The notes under the pieces are model-generated. The model worked only from the letters and a program-made list of their open reading frames with translations, was not told the origin of the DNA and made no database searches. Positions 22,818-35,828 of a stretch of DNA of 40,302 bases are shown piece by piece; positions within the stretch are counted from its first letter, which is position 1, and every line of letters starts with the position of its first letter. The position numbers and the translations under genes were made by a program. The stretch is from Bacteroidia bacterium (GTDB taxonomy: Bacteria > Bacteroidota > Bacteroidia > AKYH767-A > OLB10): positions 1 to 40,302 of the forward strand of contig JAGOJO010000013.1 in assembly GCA_017995075.1 (NCBI GenBank), in the 5' to 3' direction.

Positions 22818-25800
22818 ATGAAAAGAATTTGTATGCGAAAATTACTCTCTAAAGTTTATTGGGCGTTTCTTTTTTTATTGATCACCCATGTTTCTGAAGC
22901 ACAGATACAGGTTGATTCAATGCCCCTGCCAACCGGATATACAAATAGTGTGTTACGCCAACGTTCGGATATGATCGCACGACAGAATGGTGAGGTATGG
23001 ATATCTTTCTATACTCTCGGGGTATTTCATTACACCGGAAGTTCATGGGTTATCTATAATCCACAGAATACTTCTAATCAATTGCCCTCTCTACAGGTAC
23101 ATAAATTATGCCTGGATAGTTCCGGAGCCATGTGGATGGCAAATGAGTTAAGTCTTACAAGAATGGACGTGAACGGGTTCAAGAATTACTTCTTTTCTTC
23201 ACCGTACAACAATGTTTCAAATCCTATAACCGACCTGGTAGAGTCGCAGGGTAAAGTGATCATGTCAACGAAGCATGGACTATATGTACTTGATACTTTG
23301 ACATCGGTATGGCAATCCTATACAACCCAAAATTCAAACTTACCAAACGATACCATTAATTCACTTTTTGGTGAACCTGCCGGACCAACCTGGATATGCA
23401 CGAAATTTGGATATGCCAGATATAATCAAAACAATCTGGTTGCATTTCCACCTGCCGTCAGCGGACTTCCGGTAAATGAGGTGAAGTCGATGGCCGTCAC
23501 CCCATTTGATACCCTGCTAGCGATGGGGAATGATGTTTTGTACCGAAAAGCAGGAAGCAGTTGGTTAAACATTGACTCAGTTTACCTAGGATATCCGGAA
23601 GCTAAAATGTGGTGTGATTCAGTTTCCTTTGGTGAGTTAGCCTGGAAAGGTGAAAGTACTAAATTCATCACAAACCTGATTGTGAATTCAAACAGTGATG
23701 TGTTTTTTGTCAGATATAGATCTTCTTACCCAACGGTTGGAGTTTTCGTGCTTGAACCAAACGGGAATATGAATTACTCTTGGGCATACACTGAAGTTTT
23801 TTTGAATACTGTAGCTGACTTTTATAAATCCGATTCTATTCTTATCGGCGGAGGACTTGCTTCAACGTTTTTGCGCATGGTTGAATCGCCCAATTTTGGA
23901 AATTATATTCAATCTCCCCCACAAAATAGCTTTAGCCCTCCTTATGATTTTGATTTTGTAATTCCTCCTTCCTATAAAGGAAATTCAATGGAAACCTTGC
24001 AAGGTAACAAGATTACTTCGGCAGTATTGAATCGTGGAGATTGGGCATGGGATCCGGTTGCTCAAATACCTTTGTATGATATTCCTCGGGGGTCCGACAA
24101 GCGCACGTTATATACTGCAGCTATATGGATGGGAGGATTTGATACAGGAGGACAACTCTATACAGCCGCAATGACTTACCGTCAAAATAGTTCAAGGGAT
24201 TTTCAGCCGGGGCCGCTGGATACAGCCGGAAATTCAGATATCCTTACGACATCAGTATTTGATCATATTTGGATGACTCGCAAATCAGATATTGATGAAT
24301 TCAGGTATCAGTATGCAATGGGAAATGTAACCAATGGTACTTACATTGTTCCGCAATATATCCTCGACTGGCCGGCATCTTATAACGACCCCGCCTATCC
24401 GCAAAATCTTGCTCCGTTTGTCGATGTAAATGGTGACGGAGAATACAATCCATACGATGGAGATTTTCCTGAAGTAAAGGGTGATCAGATGTCATGGTGT
24501 GTTTTCAATGATGACATGAGTAAAACGGAGACGAATTCAATTCCGATGTTTGTGGAAATTCATGCTTCTGCGTTTGGTTCCAATTGTATGGGTACCCCGG
24601 ATGCACTAGGTCGAATTCTTTCTTATACCACTTTTTATCATTTTGATGTGTACAATAGAGGTTCAATTGATTTTGATTCCTGTTATTTCGGAATATGGTC
24701 AGATTTTGATTTAGGAAATGGTGCAGATGATTACATGGGTTGTAATCTCTCAGCTAATTCTTATTATGTTTATAATGGTGATATCGATGATGAGGGGAGT
24801 GTTGGATTTGGATTATGTCCTCCCACACAAAGCATTTCCTTTCTGCAAGGCCCATTAGCACCTTTAGGAGACGGAATTGATAATGACCATAACGGTTTGG
24901 CGGATGAAGCGAACGAAGAACTCGGACTTTCTGCTTTCACTTATTATGAAAGTTCTAATAATTTGCCAACCGGGAATCCTAATGTAATGGATGATTACTA
25001 TCAATACCTGTCCGGATCCTGGGCAGATGGTGTCCCAATTACGTTCGGGGGTGATGGAAGAGGTGGTGGAACCGGTGCTACCAATGTTCCAACCACTTTT
25101 ATGTTTTCTGATACATCAGATACCAATTTTTCTACATCATGGACTATGCAATCTGCCAACATGGTTCCGAGAGACATACGCGGCGTGGGCTCATATGGAC
25201 CATTCGCTCTCTCTGCAGGTGCAATGAAAAGTTTCGACGTTGCCTATATCACAGGGCCAAATGATCTTGTTCAGAGTCACGATTTGGTGCGTAAGCTGAG
25301 GAATTCCTTCAGAAATGGCGATCTGAGTGCTTTTCACAGTGCATTACCTATGATTCAAGGGCCGACGCAGATTACTTCTACAGGTGGCAGTGTCGCCTAT
25401 TTACTCCCTTATCAAGTTACAGGAGCTCAGTATTTATGGACTGTTTCCAATGGTTTAATCCTTTCGGGTCAGGGGACGAATGGAATCACTGTCAGCTGGG
25501 GAACAATGGGAGTCGGAGAGGTATTTGTAGAGGTAATTGAACCTGGTAACCCATGTGGCATGCATCAACGATTACCTGTTTCAATTGGTACATTGGGATT
25601 CGGTCAAATCTCCAATGAAATCACCGCGCGTATCTATCCAAATCCAACGAGACATCATTTGCAGATCGAAACACCTGATAACCGGATTTCAACTTTTGCG
25701 CTTCGGTCAACAACCGGACAATTGTTGCAGCAGAAGTCCTATACAGGTGCCTGCGATGTATCATCTCTTAGTCCGGGAATGTACTTCCTTGAACTGAAGG

Positions 25801-25847
25801 ATGAAACAGGTGTAGTATTGATCAGGAAGATGTTTCTGAAGCAATAA
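22818..25847 (+). CDS. T9SS-exported propeller protein, tandem copy 1
   Basis: This is a 1009-residue secreted protein of unknown function. After a signal peptide (ends about residue 28, VSEAQ) comes a propeller-like region (about 30-260). Its repeats (NGEVWISFYTLGVFHYTGSSW; SSGAMWMANELSL; PTWICTKFGYARY) resemble two-component-regulator propeller (Reg_prop) blades. The middle (about 375-840) is a module I know only as uncharacterised in Bacteroidota: AAIWMGGFDTGGQLYTAAMT ... GPLD ... EFRYQYAMGN. It includes a Ca-binding-like loop (DVNGDGEYNPYDGD, near 535) and a second acidic loop (DNDHNGLADEANEE). A PKD-like module with SGQGT follows, then a T9SS type A sorting domain (IYPNPTRHHLQIET ... SPGMYFLEL). 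It is the paralogue of the next gene. Confidence 0.9.
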   Translation: MKRICMRKLLSKVYWAFLFLLITHVSEAQIQVDSMPLPTGYTNSVLRQRSDMIARQNGEVWISFYTLGVFHYTGSSWVIYNPQNTSNQLPSLQVHKLCLDSSGAMWMANELSLTRMDVNGFKNYFFSSPYNNVSNPITDLVESQGKVIMSTKHGLYVLDTLTSVWQSYTTQNSNLPNDTINSLFGEPAGPTWICTKFGYARYNQNNLVAFPPAVSGLPVNEVKSMAVTPFDTLLAMGNDVLYRKAGSSWLNIDSVYLGYPEAKMWCDSVSFGELAWKGESTKFITNLIVNSNSDVFFVRYRSSYPTVGVFVLEPNGNMNYSWAYTEVFLNTVADFYKSDSILIGGGLASTFLRMVESPNFGNYIQSPPQNSFSPPYDFDFVIPPSYKGNSMETLQGNKITSAVLNRGDWAWDPVAQIPLYDIPRGSDKRTLYTAAIWMGGFDTGGQLYTAAMTYRQNSSRDFQPGPLDTAGNSDILTTSVFDHIWMTRKSDIDEFRYQYAMGNVTNGTYIVPQYILDWPASYNDPAYPQNLAPFVDVNGDGEYNPYDGDFPEVKGDQMSWCVFNDDMSKTETNSIPMFVEIHASAFGSNCMGTPDALGRILSYTTFYHFDVYNRGSIDFDSCYFGIWSDFDLGNGADDYMGCNLSANSYYVYNGDIDDEGSVGFGLCPPTQSISFLQGPLAPLGDGIDNDHNGLADEANEELGLSAFTYYESSNNLPTGNPNVMDDYYQYLSGSWADGVPITFGGDGRGGGTGATNVPTTFMFSDTSDTNFSTSWTMQSANMVPRDIRGVGSYGPFALSAGAMKSFDVAYITGPNDLVQSHDLVRKLRNSFRNGDLSAFHSALPMIQGPTQITSTGGSVAYLLPYQVTGAQYLWTVSNGLILSGQGTNGITVSWGTMGVGEVFVEVIEPGNPCGMHQRLPVSIGTLGFGQISNEITARIYPNPTRHHLQIETPDNRISTFALRSTTGQLLQQKSYTGACDVSSLSPGMYFLELKDETGVVLIRKMFLKQ

Positions 25848-25925
25848 AACTTGAATTGTAGAATAACGCAATCAATGGAATATTTATATCTTAGCGGATA
25901 AGGACATGTTCCTTTACTTATCGAT

Positions 25926-28900
25926 ATGTATTTGAAGAAAATTATTCGGTTTTTATTTGTTCTGCTAGTAGTATTACTAAACGGAAAGGATACCATTGCG
26001 CAGTTGCCTGTTGATACTTTAACATTCCCATCCACCTATTCTCTTTCGCAAGTAAATAGTATCAAGGATCTGGAAGCAGATACTGCAGGAAATATTTGGG
26101 CATCTTTTCAGTCGATCGGAGTCTTGCATTTTGATGGAACTAACTGGCAGGTTTATAATAGAGCAAACACAGGTAATCTTTTGCCTTCTGATTCTGTATA
26201 TGCGATGTATCTCGGGAAAAATGGTGCATTGTGGATGATTACTCATTTGGGAGTTACGCTAAAAGATTCTTCAGGTTTTACTTATTATCCGGAAAGTCCA
26301 ACATTACCTATATCAGATGCTTCCTTTAGTGATTTGACAATAGCCAGAGATCAGATTTTTATTTCTTCCAAAAAGGGTGTGCTGGTGTATGATATAAATT
26401 CCGGAATCTGGCAGGAGTTCAACAAAACCAATTCTCTATTACCCAGCGATACAGTGAACGCTCTTTTTACTGATCAATCCGATAACGTGTGGGTAGCAAC
26501 GAATAACGGTTATGTAAACTGGACTGCTGCAGGAATGATTCCATTTACATCTGCTAATTCATCTTTTCCCGAAAAGATCGTAAATTCAATTGCAGTAACA
26601 CCATTTGACACGCTGATTGCAACGTATAATTCACTTTACAGTAAAAATGGAAATACATATACGAATGTTGATTCGCTCTACTCAAGATACTTAGTTCCTG
26701 ATTCATGGTGTGATTCTTTAGCATTTGGTTATCTGACCGGAGTTCCAAATTCATATTTTTTCAGCAGCAAGTTGGTAGTAGCACCTAATAATGATGTTTA
26801 CGTGGTCCGTTATGAACTTCCTTATTTTATAATGGTCATTAAGTCGGGTGGGATAGTTCGTGCTGCAAACCTGCCATTGTATGATTATTTATTCAACCGG
26901 TTCACTACTTTCAAACAGGATTCTCTGGTTTATTATTCACTACAAAAGAAATGTCTTCTAAAAATTCCTTCGAATGAGGTTTTCGCTTATAACGAACCTT
27001 CTCCGGAGTTAGCTATGGAATTTCCGGCTACTTATTCTTTTTCAATTCCCGAATCACATAAAAGTTATGGTTACCAGGCAGATTTAGCACCTAATATGAT
27101 TTCAACCCGTATTCTGAATCGAGGAGATTTAGGTTGGGATCCGGCAGCACAAAACACGTATTACAGAGTCCCACGTTATTCTGAGCTAAACACTATTTAT
27201 TGTTCTGCCATATGGTTCGGTGGGTATGATCAACAGGGGAATTTATATGCTGCTGCACAAACATATCGTCAAAATGCTGGCAATGATTTTATTCCCGGCC
27301 CCTTGGATACTGTCGGACAAGCGGATTCTGCTGCAAGGGTATTCTTTAATAATATTTGGGTGACGCGACGTACCGATATAGATGAATTTCGCTATCAATA
27401 CGCAATAGGAAATGTGCAGAATGGAACATTTTCAATTTCTCCTTATATTCTCAACTGGCCGGCATTTTATAGCAATACAGCATTTCCTCAAAGATTGGCA
27501 CCGTTCGTCGATTTTAATGGAGATGGATTGTATAATCCTTACGACGGTGATTATCCGAATATAAAGGGAGAACAAATGTCATGGTGTGTTTACAATGATG
27601 ATCTTGTCAAAACGGAAACGAATAGTCCGTCAATGTTTGCAGAGATTCACGCTTCTGCATATGGATATTATTGTCCCTCATCTCAGGATGCCTTGAGCCG
27701 ATTAATTGCCTACACAACTTTTTATCATTATGATCTTTACAATCGTAGTGATCGTACCTACGACTCCTGCTATTTTGGTATCTGGTCTGACATTGAGCTT
27801 GGGAATGGAGTAGATGATTATATAGGTTGTAATATTACCAATAATACATATTATGCTTATAATGGAGATTCGATTGATGATGGTGACGGTGGGTTTGGTT
27901 TGTGTACACCGGTTCAAAATATAACATTCTTAAAAGGCCCTCCAGCTCCCCTCGGTGATAATAAAGATAATAACCACAACAGAATTGTAGATGAGGTGGA
28001 TGAAGATTTAGGTCTGTCCGGTTTTTTAATTTTTTATTCGGGAAACAATACAATTTCAAGTAACCCACATACTGCAGATGATTATTACGGATATCTTGTT
28101 CCAAGGTGGATGGATGATAGCCCAGTAACATTTGGAGGGGATGGCGTTGGAAGTTATTTAGGTGCAACGAATATTCCGACAAAATTTATGTTTCCAGATA
28201 CTACAGATTCTAATTTTTCTATCCCATGGACTATGCCCGGGGCAGGTATACAGCCGACTGATGTGAATGGTAATGGTTCCGTAGGTCCTTTCACCTGGCT
28301 GCCCGATAGCATGATAAGCTTTGACGTTGCATATATAACCGGTCCGAATGATCTGGTGCAAAATCATGATCTCGTAAGGCAATTGCGTGAACTGTTTCGT
28401 AGTGGTGGAATGGAATCATATCGTAAGTTTTCATCGCCGATTATTGGTCCGGATTCAGTTGCCAATGCAGGTACAATTGTGACTTATATGATGCCTACTG
28501 AAGCAGAAAATTATATCTGGACAGTAACAAATGGATTGATAATTTCCGGGCAAGGAACAAATACAGTGGAGGTTACCTGGGGCGCAGCCGGTCAGGGTAC
28601 TATCACTGCCGAAGCTTTTGATACAGGCGCACCCTGTGAACGGATGCAAACAATGGAAGTGCTGGTGGGCCCACCGCTAGCCGGTGATTGTGATAGTGAA
28701 CTAACGGTGCGTATATACCCAAATCCGGTGAAGAGTGTTTTACAGGTTGAGACAGAGGGCAGTTGTGTGTCTTTTCTGCGGATTCTAACTGCAAGTGGAA
28801 GCCTGGTAGAAAGCCGTGCTTTCAATGGTCAGTATGATGCTTCTTATCTGAGTAAAGGAGTTTATATTCTGGAGATGAGCAATGAAGAAGGTACTCCGTT

Positions 28901-28928
28901 AGTGCGTAAACTGTTTGTGAAAAATTAG
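25926..28928 (+). CDS. T9SS-exported propeller protein, tandem copy 2
   Basis: At 1000 residues this protein matches the upstream neighbour along its whole length: signal peptide (about 1-26, ending DTIAQ), Reg_prop-like blades (GNIWASFQSIGVLHFDGTNW), the same uncharacterised middle module (AIWFGGYDQQGNLYAAAQTY, DEFRYQYAIGN, AEIHASAYG), a Ca-binding-like loop (DFNGDGLYNPYDGD, near 528), a PKD-like SGQGTNTVEVTWG module and a T9SS type A tail (IYPNPVKSVLQVET ... SKGVYILEM). Similarity is strongest in the middle and weaker in the propeller. It is separated from copy 1 by 78 bases without a visible terminator, so the pair may be one operon. No catalytic motif is seen; surface binding or structure is the likeliest type of role. 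Confidence 0.9.
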   Translation: MYLKKIIRFLFVLLVVLLNGKDTIAQLPVDTLTFPSTYSLSQVNSIKDLEADTAGNIWASFQSIGVLHFDGTNWQVYNRANTGNLLPSDSVYAMYLGKNGALWMITHLGVTLKDSSGFTYYPESPTLPISDASFSDLTIARDQIFISSKKGVLVYDINSGIWQEFNKTNSLLPSDTVNALFTDQSDNVWVATNNGYVNWTAAGMIPFTSANSSFPEKIVNSIAVTPFDTLIATYNSLYSKNGNTYTNVDSLYSRYLVPDSWCDSLAFGYLTGVPNSYFFSSKLVVAPNNDVYVVRYELPYFIMVIKSGGIVRAANLPLYDYLFNRFTTFKQDSLVYYSLQKKCLLKIPSNEVFAYNEPSPELAMEFPATYSFSIPESHKSYGYQADLAPNMISTRILNRGDLGWDPAAQNTYYRVPRYSELNTIYCSAIWFGGYDQQGNLYAAAQTYRQNAGNDFIPGPLDTVGQADSAARVFFNNIWVTRRTDIDEFRYQYAIGNVQNGTFSISPYILNWPAFYSNTAFPQRLAPFVDFNGDGLYNPYDGDYPNIKGEQMSWCVYNDDLVKTETNSPSMFAEIHASAYGYYCPSSQDALSRLIAYTTFYHYDLYNRSDRTYDSCYFGIWSDIELGNGVDDYIGCNITNNTYYAYNGDSIDDGDGGFGLCTPVQNITFLKGPPAPLGDNKDNNHNRIVDEVDEDLGLSGFLIFYSGNNTISSNPHTADDYYGYLVPRWMDDSPVTFGGDGVGSYLGATNIPTKFMFPDTTDSNFSIPWTMPGAGIQPTDVNGNGSVGPFTWLPDSMISFDVAYITGPNDLVQNHDLVRQLRELFRSGGMESYRKFSSPIIGPDSVANAGTIVTYMMPTEAENYIWTVTNGLIISGQGTNTVEVTWGAAGQGTITAEAFDTGAPCERMQTMEVLVGPPLAGDCDSELTVRIYPNPVKSVLQVETEGSCVSFLRILTASGSLVESRAFNGQYDASYLSKGVYILEMSNEEGTPLVRKLFVKN

Positions 28929-29664: not shown

Positions 29665-31194
29665 CTACACCTCTTTCCGTAAACGTGCTACAGGTATGTT
29701 CATCTGCTCTCTGTATTTTGCTACAGTACGGCGTGCGATATTGTACCCGGCTTTATTGAGGATCTCTGCGAGTTTCTCATCAGGGAGCGGATGTTTCTTA
29801 TCCTCCTTGCTGATATTGTCTTCGAGAATCTTCTTAATCTCCCTGCTGGAGGCTTCTTCACCACTATCGGTAGCCAAACCTTCGGAGAAGAAATATTTTA
29901 AAAGGAAGGTGCCGTAAGGTGTTTCTACATATTTACTGTTGGCGACACGCGACACAGTGGAGATATCGAGTCCGACCATGTCTGCAATGTCTTTTAAAAT
30001 CATCGGCTTTAAATCACGCTCATCTCCTTGCAGAAAATATTCCTTCTGGTAATTCATGATGGCGGTCATGGTGCCAAGCAGTGTATGCTGACGTTGCTTG
30101 ATGGCATCTATAAACCATTTTGCTGCATCTATTTTGGATTTGATAAATGCAACTGCATCTTTACTGTCCTTCTTTTTATCTTTTGCATAAGTCGACAACA
30201 TCTCCTGAAAAGAACGACTGATACGTAAATCCGGATCATTCTTGGAGTTGAGACTAAGCTCAAGTTGGTTATCGATGACGCTGAGGATAAAATCAGGGAT
30301 GATCTGCTGACTGGTACGCGTATCATCTGCTGATCCTCCACCCGGACGCGGATTCAGCGTGAGTATTTCGTTGATGGCTTCTTTGAGCTCGTCGTCGTTC
30401 AGACTTAACGATCGCTGAATTTTTTCGTAATGCTTTTTCGAGAACTCTTCGAAATATTCTTTGAGAATCTGGTAAGCAGTGTCGTGTGGAGGATGATCAA
30501 GATGCTTACGTTCTAATTGTAGCATCAGACATTCACGTAAATCCCGCGCAGCAATTCCGGGAGGGTCGAGGGTTTGAATAACCTTTAACGTTTCCTCGAG
30601 TTCCTTTTCGTTGGTTTGGATATTGCGTGTGAAAGCCAGATCATCCACGATGGAGTCAAGGTCGCGGCGGAGATATCCATCATCATCTAAACTCCCGATG
30701 AGATGCTCTGCCAACTGGTAATGATGATCATCAAGTGGTAATACACCTAAATTCCCGAGCAGATTATCCTGATAGGAAACACTTACGGTGATCGGTGTTT
30801 CGGGACGCTCATCATCGGCCGATGAATTGTTGGCGTTTAATTTATAGTAAGGAACATCATCGTCATCGATGTAATCCGCTACATCTACATCTTCATTGCG
30901 GATAGCTTCCGATAAAGCTTCGGCTTCCGCATCGTCGGCTGATTCAGTGCGCTCTTCTCGTTCTGTTTCTTCATCCTCTGCATTGAACTCATCACGCTCG
31001 TCGATATCATCCTGCTGTGCTTCTTCCTCGGCAATGTCGTCCGGACTCCCTTCTTCCAAAGCCGGATTAATCTCCAGTTCTTCCTTGATCCGTTGTTCCA
31101 AAGCAGCCGTCGGCACCTGCAACAGTTTCATCAATTGAATCTGTTGGGGCGATAGCTTTTGAAGTAGCTTCTGATGTAATCCTAATTTTTGCAT
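29665..31194 (-). CDS. rpoN: RNA polymerase sigma-54 factor
   Basis: Sigma-54, 509 residues, directs RNA polymerase to -24/-12 promoters that need an AAA+ activator. Region I is the Gln/Leu-rich N-terminus (LGLHQKLLQKLSPQQIQLMK). Region II is a long acidic linker (about 50-120, rich in Asp/Glu). The core-binding and HTH parts follow (VGLDISTVSRVANSKYVETP), and the diagnostic RpoN box ARRTVAKYRE lies at about 487-496. All parts are intact. No sigma-54 activator gene is in the window, and I found no intergenic -24/-12 promoter. The gene heads a minus-strand pair with the PAP2-like protein. A near-match -7 (plus strand CGAAAATA at 31204-31211) lies just before the ATG. Confidence 0.97.
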   Translation of the reverse strand: MQKLGLHQKLLQKLSPQQIQLMKLLQVPTAALEQRIKEELEINPALEEGSPDDIAEEEAQQDDIDERDEFNAEDEETEREERTESADDAEAEALSEAIRNEDVDVADYIDDDDVPYYKLNANNSSADDERPETPITVSVSYQDNLLGNLGVLPLDDHHYQLAEHLIGSLDDDGYLRRDLDSIVDDLAFTRNIQTNEKELEETLKVIQTLDPPGIAARDLRECLMLQLERKHLDHPPHDTAYQILKEYFEEFSKKHYEKIQRSLSLNDDELKEAINEILTLNPRPGGGSADDTRTSQQIIPDFILSVIDNQLELSLNSKNDPDLRISRSFQEMLSTYAKDKKKDSKDAVAFIKSKIDAAKWFIDAIKQRQHTLLGTMTAIMNYQKEYFLQGDERDLKPMILKDIADMVGLDISTVSRVANSKYVETPYGTFLLKYFFSEGLATDSGEEASSREIKKILEDNISKEDKKHPLPDEKLAEILNKAGYNIARRTVAKYREQMNIPVARLRKEV

Positions 31195-31231
31195 ACGATG
31201 CTACGAAAATAACGAATGTGGGTGTGAAAGG

Positions 31232-31256
31232 GGGGATTTTTAGGGTAAAAATCCCC
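31232..31256. repeat. Perfect hairpin between rpoN and the beta-helix gene
   Basis: GGGGATTTTT (31232-31241) and AAAAATCCCC (31247-31256) form a 10-bp stem with an AGGGT loop, 38 bases upstream of the rpoN ATG. Seven A follow on the plus strand, so it is not a canonical terminator for either direction. It could be an operator or act in the rpoN leader. Confidence 0.6.
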
Positions 31257-31293
31257 AAAAAAAGGGTTGGATTAGGGCTAATGGTGGCAGAAA

Positions 31294-34200
31294 TTGAAAT
31301 TTGTTATTCATATCGTAGAAAATACTTCATATTTATTATCTTTAAGTAAATTTACTAAACTAAACTATTATGAAATTTACCCCCCCCCCCAACTCAGACC
31401 ACAAGTCTTAATTTCATTTTCTAAACAGGTATTTGGTTTAACTTATAAGGTATCAAAAGCCTTTATAGAATACAGAAAGTACTGCATTTATTATATCAAC
31501 GATTTCATTCAAAGAATACTAATAAAAATTACCAGTGGTAAAGAAATACGAAATTACACCTCCCAATTTTGTGTTTTAATCATGTTGTTTCATTCTAATA
31601 TCATTGCTCAAACTGTGGCTCCTTGTCCTCCATTCTCAGGAGCTAATTCAATAGATCTTTCTAATCAATTTGGAAGCGGATCCAATACATCTTCAAGCTT
31701 ATTTGCCTATCAGAGTACTATAGGGTCATTTTTGAATGCAGGCATTACACCGCTTTCGAATAATTGGTGGAGAAACGATTTACCTCCTAGTTGGTTTCCG
31801 AATGCTTATGGGGGTAATACTACAAATATTCAGTTTACTGCACAAAACTATCCAAATCCGAATACAGGGAAAGAAATTCGTATTACCGGGGACTTTATTG
31901 TTGATCAAAGCATTGCTATACAGTATTCTGAAATTAAAATGGGCACTGGAGCAAGGATCATTATCAAGCCAGGTGCCTTGTTAGATTTAAAAACATGCTG
32001 GGTTCACTCTTGCGATGAAGCTTCCTCCATGTGGGAGGGTATTATTGTCGAATCCGGTGGATTTCTACGAATTACGGCATCTACACTTGTCGAAGATGGC
32101 ATTACTGCCATCACTGCATTGAACAATTCTTTCATTGATATTTCAGTTTCGAATTTTAATAGAAATTATATAGGTATTAAACTGGATGGCCCGGTGGTGA
32201 ATGGCACAGCAGTGAACACAACCGGAAATGGTGTAAATATCGAGCGTACAAGTTTTTCATGTGTTAATATTTCGATGTTGATTTTGGGTGGTTCAATCTT
32301 GACTTCGGGTGTGGTGAATCTTGCTGGACCCTATTTGCCTTTAACCCTCAAAGCGCCTTATTCCAACAAGCGAAGTTATATTGGTATTTTGGTAAATGGC
32401 ATAGCTCAGAGTAATATGCCACATATTGGAAGGACTTATCAATCAAACGCAAAGAACCAGTTTGTCAATTTGACGACCGGGATAAAGGTTGAAAATTCCT
32501 TTGCACTTATATTAAATAGTCATTTCTATGATGTGAACCCTGATCCGGGTATTACAAATTCAAATGGCATTGCAATAGATATTAACGGGGTTTATTCGGG
32601 CGGGAGCCCTAATACAACACAATTTAATACTACCATTGGCGATGATATCCCTTCTACATTGTATGATCAATGTACCTTTTATAACGTTGTAGCCGGTGTA
32701 AGGGTACGAAATGCCAGCGATATAAGTATCTTTAATACATTTTTTGATAATCTGATCACAAGCCCGATCATTCTGGATAGAATAAGAGGAGGCAGGATTA
32801 TGGTGAAAAATAATACAATCCGAAATTATACAACGAAAGGGCTTTCCATATTGAACTGTATCAACAATCTTCAATTGGAGGTACATGGAAATACCTTCGA
32901 TTTGAGTTTAAACACAGGGTATTCGGGATTGAGTAAATTTGGTGAAACCGGTATTTATCTCATCAATACACCGATTGCCTATAGCGGTGCATTCATCAGT
33001 GAAAACACCTTTAGTAATCTTCGGCATGGCGTTTATTGTAATGGCGCAAGAACTTCCACTATCACAAGCAATACTGTTTCGTATAATCGCCCTTGGTCGG
33101 TTATGCAGAATAACCTGCATGCCGGTTTCTGGCTGGACAACACGGATAATGTGCGTATATACTTTAATCTCGTGGAGTATAATGCTACCAGAGCGGCACA
33201 GGTGCCCTCGGGTTCTTCCATTGCACAGGATCTTCGCGGACTTGTACTAAAAGCAACCACGAATACATTAGTTGCGTCTAATGTTTTTAGAAATACCGGC
33301 CGTCCTGTCAGGTGTGTGGATAATATTTTGAATACCTACTTTAACTGCAATGAATTCGATGGCTCCTTTGATGCCTGGCAGTTTCAGAATGTGGATTTAT
33401 CTGTACAAGGCGGACCGTCTAAACCTACCGGCAATATATGGAAAAACTACCCGCGTGTAAACTCTTCCGCAATAAATAAAGTGGCAGGGTATATCAGTTT
33501 TCTTACCGACTACTATTACAGCCCGGTCACGGCCGGTGCAATAACGCAAATTCCGCTGCCGAACGGATGTTTTAATTTTGTGGAAAAAATAGCAACCGGG
33601 ACAAGCCCCTGTCAGGATCAACAACTGGATGATAGTGGAGGAGATGTGCTGGATTTTGTGCTTGGTGATACAATAAATGTGTCGAACGATTCCCTTTTAT
33701 CAGAAGAACGTCGACGCTGGACGGCCTATCTGTTAGCATCCGATTCCCTCCGTGCCTTGCCTGATTATCAGAACTGGTTTCAGCAAATGGAAGGTGCTGA
33801 GTCGCGTATTTATGCCAATCTGGTGGATTCGGCGTATGAACGGTCACTGATTGTTGAAGACTTACGGCAACTGAGTGGATTTAAGTCACCGGAGTTCCAA
33901 TACAAACGTGATTTGTTTTTACATGCCCTTGTCAACCAGCTCTCGGAAGAGGATGAAGATGAATCATACGATACCTTGCAACTTGAAACCCTGGCGAATA
34001 CTCCGGCATGGTCAGGCACCAGTGCAGTTTTTCTTGCAAGAGCAATATTATCAGAGGAGGTAGATGACGAGGATCTGGGATTAAGACTTTTACAATATGC
34101 AAATCAGAAAAACCCTTGTTCAATAACAGTTATAATAGAGCATCAGGATTTAAAAATTGTTACTACCGATGCCTATATCGTAGAGTTGTATTCAGCCGAT

Positions 34201-34332
34201 GGGCGATTAATGTCAAGGACTTCTCTCACTGGCGATAAGTTAATCTCCTTATCCGATTATGATCAAATTGGATTTTACAGGGCTTATTCAGCAAATTGCA
34301 CTACCACCGGTAAATGGATACTTGTACGATGA
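31294..34332 (+). CDS. Secreted beta-helix protein behind a poly-C tract
   Basis: The reading frame opens with a TTG at 31294, but this start is doubtful. The mature part begins near NIIAQTVAPC (about residue 105), after a hydrophobic stretch (FCVLIMLFHSN). Residues ~200-680 hold right-handed parallel beta-helix repeats (many N-x-F/I-x-N turns, e.g. ISENTFSNLRHGVYCNGART). An acidic helical region (about 790-930) and a diverged T9SS-like tail follow (AYIVELYSADGRLMSRTSLT ... IGFYRAYS). The only plausible ATG (31370) is out of frame by one base because of an 11-C run at 31380-31390; 12 C would join it to this frame. No other in-frame ATG, GTG or TTG lies between the tract and base 31582. The next gene overlaps by ATGA, so both may be translationally coupled. 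Binding or degradation of polysaccharide is possible but not shown. Confidence 0.75.
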   Translation: MKFVIHIVENTSYLLSLSKFTKLNYYEIYPPPQLRPQVLISFSKQVFGLTYKVSKAFIEYRKYCIYYINDFIQRILIKITSGKEIRNYTSQFCVLIMLFHSNIIAQTVAPCPPFSGANSIDLSNQFGSGSNTSSSLFAYQSTIGSFLNAGITPLSNNWWRNDLPPSWFPNAYGGNTTNIQFTAQNYPNPNTGKEIRITGDFIVDQSIAIQYSEIKMGTGARIIIKPGALLDLKTCWVHSCDEASSMWEGIIVESGGFLRITASTLVEDGITAITALNNSFIDISVSNFNRNYIGIKLDGPVVNGTAVNTTGNGVNIERTSFSCVNISMLILGGSILTSGVVNLAGPYLPLTLKAPYSNKRSYIGILVNGIAQSNMPHIGRTYQSNAKNQFVNLTTGIKVENSFALILNSHFYDVNPDPGITNSNGIAIDINGVYSGGSPNTTQFNTTIGDDIPSTLYDQCTFYNVVAGVRVRNASDISIFNTFFDNLITSPIILDRIRGGRIMVKNNTIRNYTTKGLSILNCINNLQLEVHGNTFDLSLNTGYSGLSKFGETGIYLINTPIAYSGAFISENTFSNLRHGVYCNGARTSTITSNTVSYNRPWSVMQNNLHAGFWLDNTDNVRIYFNLVEYNATRAAQVPSGSSIAQDLRGLVLKATTNTLVASNVFRNTGRPVRCVDNILNTYFNCNEFDGSFDAWQFQNVDLSVQGGPSKPTGNIWKNYPRVNSSAINKVAGYISFLTDYYYSPVTAGAITQIPLPNGCFNFVEKIATGTSPCQDQQLDDSGGDVLDFVLGDTINVSNDSLLSEERRRWTAYLLASDSLRALPDYQNWFQQMEGAESRIYANLVDSAYERSLIVEDLRQLSGFKSPEFQYKRDLFLHALVNQLSEEDEDESYDTLQLETLANTPAWSGTSAVFLARAILSEEVDDEDLGLRLLQYANQKNPCSITVIIEHQDLKIVTTDAYIVELYSADGRLMSRTSLTGDKLISLSDYDQIGFYRAYSANCTTTGKWILVR
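31380..31390 (+). repeat. Homopolymeric C(11) tract at the 5' end of a secreted-protein gene
   Basis: Eleven consecutive C follow ATGAAATTTA (31370-31379). With 11 C the ATG frame ends after 13 codons at 31409-31411. With 12 (or 9) it fuses to the long frame below. This is the layout of a slippage-prone contingency tract, though a length miscall in sequencing would look the same. Confidence 0.9.
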
Positions 34333-35828
34333 GAGCGACCATCATTTTGTTTTGGCTGATGATTTCATCTTCGCTTAACGCCCAGTTCACCAATTGGAAC
34401 TGGGCGTTTGGGGATAGTTGTGGGATGCGGTTTAATAGTACCGGTATTGATTCTAATTATATCACGGCCGTAAATTCAAGAGGGACGTGTGCCAGTATAT
34501 CAGATGCCGGAGGTAATATGTTGTTTTATGCTAGTTCTCCTGAGCCAAATGTATTTCTAAGTCCTAATTTATTTATGGGAGTCATTTTCAACCGGAATCA
34601 CCAGGTGATGCAAAACGGATTGTACATTACCGGTTCTGCATGGTACAATGAAATGGTAATACTACCAGATCCGGGAAATGGGAATGAATTCTATGTATTC
34701 ACTGCCGGAATTACTTCATCCATCAACCCCGGGCTACGCTATACAAAAGTGGATGTAAGCCAGAACGGAGGCTTAGGTACAGTGACACAAAAAAACGTGA
34801 TGCTGGATCCCATGCAAATCAATGACGGAATCATAGCCGTGAAACACGGAAATGGGCGCGATTGGTGGTTGATTTACAAACATGGTTTTCCTCAAAATGA
34901 TTCGATGTGCAGAGTGTTAGTATCACCCAATGGAGTCTCATTGCAACCGGTTCAGCAAATCGGTACTTTCATGGAGTCGAGCGCATATCGCATGTCGATC
35001 AATCCGGCAGGGGACCTGATTGCAGGTGTTACGGTAAGGGGCGTTATAGAGCTATTTGATTTTGACCGCTGCACAGGTTTGTTAAGCAATCATCGATATC
35101 TCAAAAATAATTTAGGAACAAATGATGAGAAAGAACGATTCTGGAGTGTGGAATTTAGTAGTAGCAGTCGCTATTTATATGTCGCCACTGCAGATTGGAC
35201 CAGCTATCTCTACCAATTTGATCTGCAAAATGCTAACCCCTGGGCTTCGCGTGTATTACTGGATTCCATTGATGTTCCACTTGCACCCGCCAGTACTATT
35301 CGCCGGGGACCGGATAACCGAATCTATCGTGCCATCGCCTGGAACAACGGTTTATCATATAACTACCCATATCCCGATTCCGCCTGGAATATATACAACA
35401 CCCACCTGAGTGTCATCAACCATCCGGACAGTGCCGGTTTAGCATGCGATTACCAGCCTTTCAGTGTGTATTTGCCCGGCTGCAGAACATATCTGGGTCT
35501 GCCCAACAATCCGGATTATACCTTGGGTCCGCTGGCAGGAAGTCCCTGCGATACCTTAGCCATTGGCGTAGAAGAATTGCAAGAGGAGATCGTTCGCATC
35601 ATTCCTAACCCTGCAACTACAGAAATAAAACTTGAGTCTTCATCTGGTAACATCCGGGACGGCACCCTCTATCGCATCAACGACATCACCGGCCGAACGA
35701 AGTTAACTGGCTATCTCCTAGGTGAAACCTCTACAATAAATGTCCAGTCCTTAGTCCCCGGAGTTTATCTGTTGGAAATGTACTCAGAAAAGGGTAACTC
35801 AATGGCCAGGTTTGTCAAGATGGAATAA
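34329..35828 (+). CDS. Exported WD40/propeller-like protein with T9SS tail
   Basis: From the ATG at 34329 the product is 499 residues. The ATG overlaps the previous gene's TGA (ATGA), which argues for this start over an upstream in-frame codon and for translational coupling. A signal peptide is clear (MRATIILFWLMISSSLNAQ). The body (about 20-400) shows beta-propeller-like repeats, e.g. GDLIAGVTVRGVIELFDFDR and FSSSSRYLYVATADWTSYLY, in the style of WD40-like T9SS proteins. The end is a T9SS type A sorting domain (IIPNPATTEIKLES ... LVPGVYLLEMY). No catalytic residues can be named; the role is unknown. Its stop is 4 bases from the converging asnS stop, and no terminator is visible in that gap. 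Confidence 0.88.
   Translation: MRATIILFWLMISSSLNAQFTNWNWAFGDSCGMRFNSTGIDSNYITAVNSRGTCASISDAGGNMLFYASSPEPNVFLSPNLFMGVIFNRNHQVMQNGLYITGSAWYNEMVILPDPGNGNEFYVFTAGITSSINPGLRYTKVDVSQNGGLGTVTQKNVMLDPMQINDGIIAVKHGNGRDWWLIYKHGFPQNDSMCRVLVSPNGVSLQPVQQIGTFMESSAYRMSINPAGDLIAGVTVRGVIELFDFDRCTGLLSNHRYLKNNLGTNDEKERFWSVEFSSSSRYLYVATADWTSYLYQFDLQNANPWASRVLLDSIDVPLAPASTIRRGPDNRIYRAIAWNNGLSYNYPYPDSAWNIYNTHLSVINHPDSAGLACDYQPFSVYLPGCRTYLGLPNNPDYTLGPLAGSPCDTLAIGVEELQEEIVRIIPNPATTEIKLESSSGNIRDGTLYRINDITGRTKLTGYLLGETSTINVQSLVPGVYLLEMYSEKGNSMARFVKME

Follow-up and report, generated by a model that had tools for sequence, protein, structure and literature searches.

The window, a stretch of 40,302 nucleotides from a Bacteroidia bacterium, carries at positions 31380-31390 of the forward strand an uninterrupted run of 11 C (C11), the first base of which lies 10 nt after the first base of an ATG at 31370. 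As assembled, this ATG opens a frame of 13 codons closed by a TAA at 31409-31411 (31370..31411, + strand). The same frame would comprise 17 codons with 10 C and 987 codons with 12 C, and the gain or loss of one C, a unit that is not a multiple of three, moves an intact long open reading frame (ORF) in or out of frame. The preliminary description had placed this ATG one base out of frame and put the frame opened by 12 C at more than 980 codons; both statements hold, and its claim that the long frame has no ATG, GTG or TTG between the tract and an ATG at 31582 agrees with the frame scan. Immediately downstream of the tract lies an AT-rich 5' extension (31391..31581, + strand) that forms the long n-region of the leader. 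Its 63 codons up to 31582 are stop-free in the gene frame only, which occurred in 0.9% of trials under a Markov model of the composition of the stretch. The predicted hydrophobic core and end of the signal peptide (TSQFCVLIMLFHSNIIAQ; 31558..31611, + strand) follow, with the core at residues 64-80 of the in-frame (ON) product according to a crude hydropathy scan; a leader with about 63 residues ahead of the hydrophobic core is unusually long. The 987-codon frame is otherwise undamaged. On the 5' side the region is bounded by the divergent neighbor rpoN (sigma-54; 29665..31194, - strand), which lies outside the proposed switch. C11 is the sole C or G run of at least 10 nt in the 3.24 Mb draft genome (176 contigs), for which 0.09-0.11 C runs of at least 11 nt are expected by chance, and none of the other C runs of at least 8 nt in this genome is located at a gene start.

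The body of the secreted protein encoded by the 987-residue ON frame (31391..34332, + strand) is modeled as a right-handed parallel beta-helix (mean pLDDT 56, with most of the body at 70-90). Among solved structures, its best match is a cyanophage tailspike (7eea_B; Z 25.4, rmsd 3.2, 436 residues aligned), followed by NosD and, lower down, by the adhesin PfbA and alginate epimerases. All of these share the fold of the protein body (Z 19-25), but with identities of 9-15% they do not imply a shared function. The protein has no Pfam match above cut-off, and a type IX secretion system (T9SS) sorting domain at its C-terminus remains below cut-off (14.4 vs. 23 bits); the C-terminal ends of its homologues align over their length. 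The downstream gene (34329..35828, + strand), which overlaps the beta-helix gene by ATGA, encodes an exported protein whose N-terminus forms a signal-like helix and whose middle part is propeller-like in a model of low confidence (pLDDT 60); the protein also carries a T9SS type A sorting domain (PF18962 / TIGR04183; 35598..35813, + strand) that scores above both cut-offs (32.1 bits, cut-off 27; 34.3 bits, cut-off 23). Previously noted simply as an ATGA-coupled neighbor, it turns out to be a conserved partner: its homologues directly adjoin beta-helix homologues in four relatives (G009, G028, G019 and G013), and the two genes therefore constitute a conserved two-gene cassette. Two homologues of the partner gene, L054 (G007:C6) and L059 (G023:C4), contain internal poly-G runs (10 and 12 G) that are in frame and occupy the same Gly-coding site, and a third, L081 (G013:C22), contains an internal run of 10 G that is out of frame; judging from these sequences, the partner family may have a repeat switch of its own. 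Elsewhere in the window, two paralogous genes in tandem (22818-28928) encode exported proteins of about 1000 residues each, in which propeller repeats are combined with a PKD-like domain and a T9SS sorting domain, and positions 1-2688 contain a 273-bp repeat array (7.7 copies). The array lies within a long ORF made up of repeated domains, whose product may be a surface protein varied by recombination.

A profile built from four full-length homologues of the beta-helix protein and searched against 42 genomes of the order retrieved nine full-length members, six of which carry a repeat directly after the start codon. These repeats are of two unrelated kinds, poly-C and an octamer, (ACACCAGT)n. 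Besides C11 in the window, which is out of frame, the 5' end of the G028 homologue reads ATGAAAAAGAAATTT-C13 (out of frame) and that of G009 reads ATGAAATCAATTTC followed by about eight copies of ACACCAGT, some of them imperfect (out of frame). Three paralogues are found in G007: (i) one with seven octamer copies, in frame (G007:C28); (ii) one with four octamer copies, in frame (G007:C10); (iii) one whose octamer array has decayed and whose frame shifts directly downstream of the signal peptide (G007:C14, L308), the switch having apparently been lost there, as far as its sequence tells. The remaining three members (G019, G013 and G023) have ordinary starts with no repeat. Among 100 relatives, the octamer (in three perfect copies) was found in G007 and G009 only, and there at the loci of this family only. 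As in poly-C, the gain or loss of one octamer unit shifts the long ORF in or out of frame. Neither repeat contains a stop codon in any frame, poly-C encoding proline and the octamer TSTPVHQY, and both are therefore suited to the tolerant n-region of a leader. The position of the tract is thus conserved among the homologues, and what varies is its length or the type of repeat (C11, C13, octamers); relatives retain ATG-AAA immediately ahead of the repeat. No single fixed in-frame length runs through the relatives, as would be expected of a mere error in the assembly; C13 or octamers stand at the same site, both in and out of frame. In the sister species of the genus, a direct search found the beta-helix protein to be absent.

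The same layout recurs well beyond this family. Two scans were carried out, one for ATGAAA-(1-10 nt)-TTA-C10+ with one genome per species, limited to the matches listed, and the other for ATGA-(2-26 nt)-C9+ in 199 relatives. Together they yielded at least 76 non-redundant loci, including loci of cultured isolates, in which an ATG and a poly-C of at least 9 precede a signal peptide and a long exported protein; in the recurrent arrangement, ATG AAA is separated by a few codons from a C run that encodes proline, and the signal peptide and the long exported protein follow. The reversed-pattern control of the second scan also matched (repetitive tracts, abundant AGTA), and a test for an ORF with a signal peptide was therefore preferred. 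Among the matches listed, 113 sites with ATGAAA followed by C9 or more had sufficient sequence downstream; 68 of them showed a long ORF with a signal-peptide-like segment in one of the phases, compared with 113 of 1078 random ATGAAA sites. The signal peptide was scored by a crude hydropathy threshold, which 41% of the ordinary ORFs in these loci pass as well. When the shifted phases only were considered, the corresponding counts among the matches listed were 59 of 113 and 22 of 1078. Some spirochaete matches, the mnmG-like L132 and the contig ends of G145 belong to another kind and were left out of this argument; in G145, three contigs of one genome (L119-L121) start with the same ATGAAGT-C9-ATGAAATATCGG end, which looks like an assembly end artefact. 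Differences in tract length were seen within single genes and gene families. The same gene is in frame with C12 in Aequorivita antarctica (ON) and out of frame with C11 in A. capsosiphonis (OFF), and the alignment of the coding 5' end shows no further indel. In KatS3mg027, paralogues that share a contig carry tracts of C12, C14 and C16, and the tract is C12 in a related metagenome-assembled genome (MAG). Very long C or G runs were noted in other relatives: 22 in L044 (G025:C19), 18 in L042 (G040:C68) and 19 in L133 (G121:C1). The Bacteroidota promoter motif TAnnTTTG was found upstream of 9 of 47 tract genes, compared with 4.0 in shuffles; in the window, none lies within 110 nt upstream, and the motif proved uninformative.

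With C13 and octamers at the homologous site and the layout recurring in many genomes, isolates included, the earlier suggestion of a contingency switch gains support: C11 is very probably a short-sequence-repeat contingency locus that acts as a slipped-strand on/off switch for the beta-helix protein. The alternative that survives best, although unlikely, is that a tract in an OFF phase still permits expression. The ribosome would slip by +1 at CCC-C, or RNA polymerase would slip on the C run, protein would be supplied at a low and steady level, and tract length would set dosage rather than an on/off state. According to PMC8643618, +1 frameshifting is known to occur at proline codons, where m1G37 guards against it; this lends the alternative some plausibility, as does the distribution of phases. 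Of the 76 loci listed, 10 were assembled in frame and 66 in an OFF phase. The OFF loci are dominated by the phase that is curable by a ribosomal +1 shift: 47 of the 66 have one C too many, and the other 19 lack one. Most of the excess of loci with one C too many, however, comes from C10 tracts (24 of 31), which is consistent with the length cut-off used in the searches; among listed tracts of at least 11 C, 6 of 42 are in frame and the two OFF phases are represented by 21 (one fewer) and 15 (one more) loci. A cut-off of 9-10 C favors tracts slightly longer than an ON length, so that leaky decoding is not proven by the scarcity of ON alleles. Moreover, the window allele needs the opposite shift, and the octamers, which include two clear ON alleles, offer no such ribosomal slip. 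A share of ON alleles below one third is not predicted by pure neutral switching, though the length cut-off biases the count; the scarcity could be either biological (a cost of expression, with an OFF majority) or partly a matter of sampling.

An error of sequencing or assembly, in which the true tract is stably in frame and the gene is never switched off, is quite improbable. The window comes from a MAG-like draft of 176 contigs, and a one-base homopolymer miscall would give exactly such a picture, with the ORF otherwise intact. However, the octamers at the homologous site cannot be homopolymer errors, and no other argument weighs as heavily against the view that assembly error explains everything. 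In addition, poly-C at gene starts recurs in cultured isolates, and miscalls would be expected in a minority of loci, yet most loci are out of frame. Even if miscalled by one, a tract of 11-12 C would still be prone to slippage; the tract of this MAG could be off by one and the contingency reading would be unchanged. Slipped-strand phase variation thus appears much likelier than error on the comparative sequence evidence.

Less probable still is that the gene is a decaying pseudogene, or that translation actually begins at TTG 31294 or ATG 31582 and the tract is incidental. The account of C11 as a switch is most open to challenge at TTG 31294, which lies upstream of the tract in frame and, with 11 C, would cross it in frame to give a product of 1012 residues; it is disfavored as a start because the relatives conserve the anatomy of ATG-AAA and tract. 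ATG 31582 is a poor start because the hydrophobic core begins upstream of it, and initiation there would leave the core too short. Decay is illustrated by the G007 paralogue that is frameshifted after its signal peptide, but the 987-codon frame shows no other damage, and both the partner and the family are conserved. Control by an invertible promoter, the usual mode of phase variation in Bacteroidota as generally understood, can be dismissed almost entirely, as a search of 31000-31900 revealed no inverted-repeat arms flanking a promoter; a short palindrome and a hairpin of 11 nt whose loop measures 3 nt were all that it returned.

A slipped-strand contingency switch would operate in this strain as follows. 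Mispairing during replication would alter the number of C. At lengths of 3n (9, 12, 15), ATG 31370 would be in frame with the leader and signal peptide, and the beta-helix protein would be made and exported; at other lengths, translation would end within about 20 codons, leaving an OFF peptide of 13-17 residues. Expression of the ATGA-coupled partner would probably be lowered in the OFF state, by polarity or by lost coupling. Switching would be reversible and would change the level of the beta-helix protein, for which a surface role in adhesion, glycan binding or antigen/phage-receptor variation can be envisaged.

Discussions of phase variation in Bacteroidota usually center on DNA inversion; the present locus and those related to it suggest that exported proteins can also be switched by a second route, at the level of translation. 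It is somewhat better than an even bet that Bacteroidota and scattered other lineages harbor a class of translational contingency loci that has evolved repeatedly and has been overlooked, in which an unstable repeat lies at about codons 4-8, within the signal-peptide n-region of exported proteins, the majority allele is usually OFF, and, in one family of cassettes of a beta-helix protein and a T9SS partner, poly-C and octamer share the switch site. Gene callers are likely to miss such loci: as most assembled alleles are out of frame, the annotation loses the start and the signal peptide. Cultured species in which switching could be counted in existing reads are found in Aequorivita, Algoriphagus, Patiriisocius, Planktosalinus, Fibrella and Hydrotalea.

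Poly-A/T tracts at the 5' ends of genes have been described as a general regulatory device, with the poly-A of inlA as an example (Orsi et al. 2010; PMC2831843). They resemble the present loci in being homopolymers near the 5' end that cause reversible frameshift inactivation, but they consist of A or T, whereas the tracts described here are poly-C of 9-20; the main text of that study does not contain the names Bacteroid-, Flavobacter- or Cytophag-. Clusters of phase variation have also been treated generally by GeneTack (PMC3711429). Searches of the open-licence literature turned up no description of contingency loci in Bacteroidota that are based on poly-C or an octamer. The mechanism is already known, and its breadth in Bacteroidota is apparently undescribed. 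The capsule and surface loci of Bacteroides are controlled by invertible promoters; they likewise yield phase-variable surface products in the same phylum, but by DNA inversion at the level of transcription, and no such repeats were found in the region searched here. Leader-sequence phase variation is known from Neisseria opa (CTCTT repeats) and pilC (poly-G). As in those genes, the repeat lies within the region encoding the signal peptide, its copy number sets the frame and the product is an exported surface protein; here, in contrast, the hosts are free-living Bacteroidota, the repeat is a proline-coding poly-C or an octamer, and the gene belongs to a two-gene cassette with a T9SS-tagged partner.
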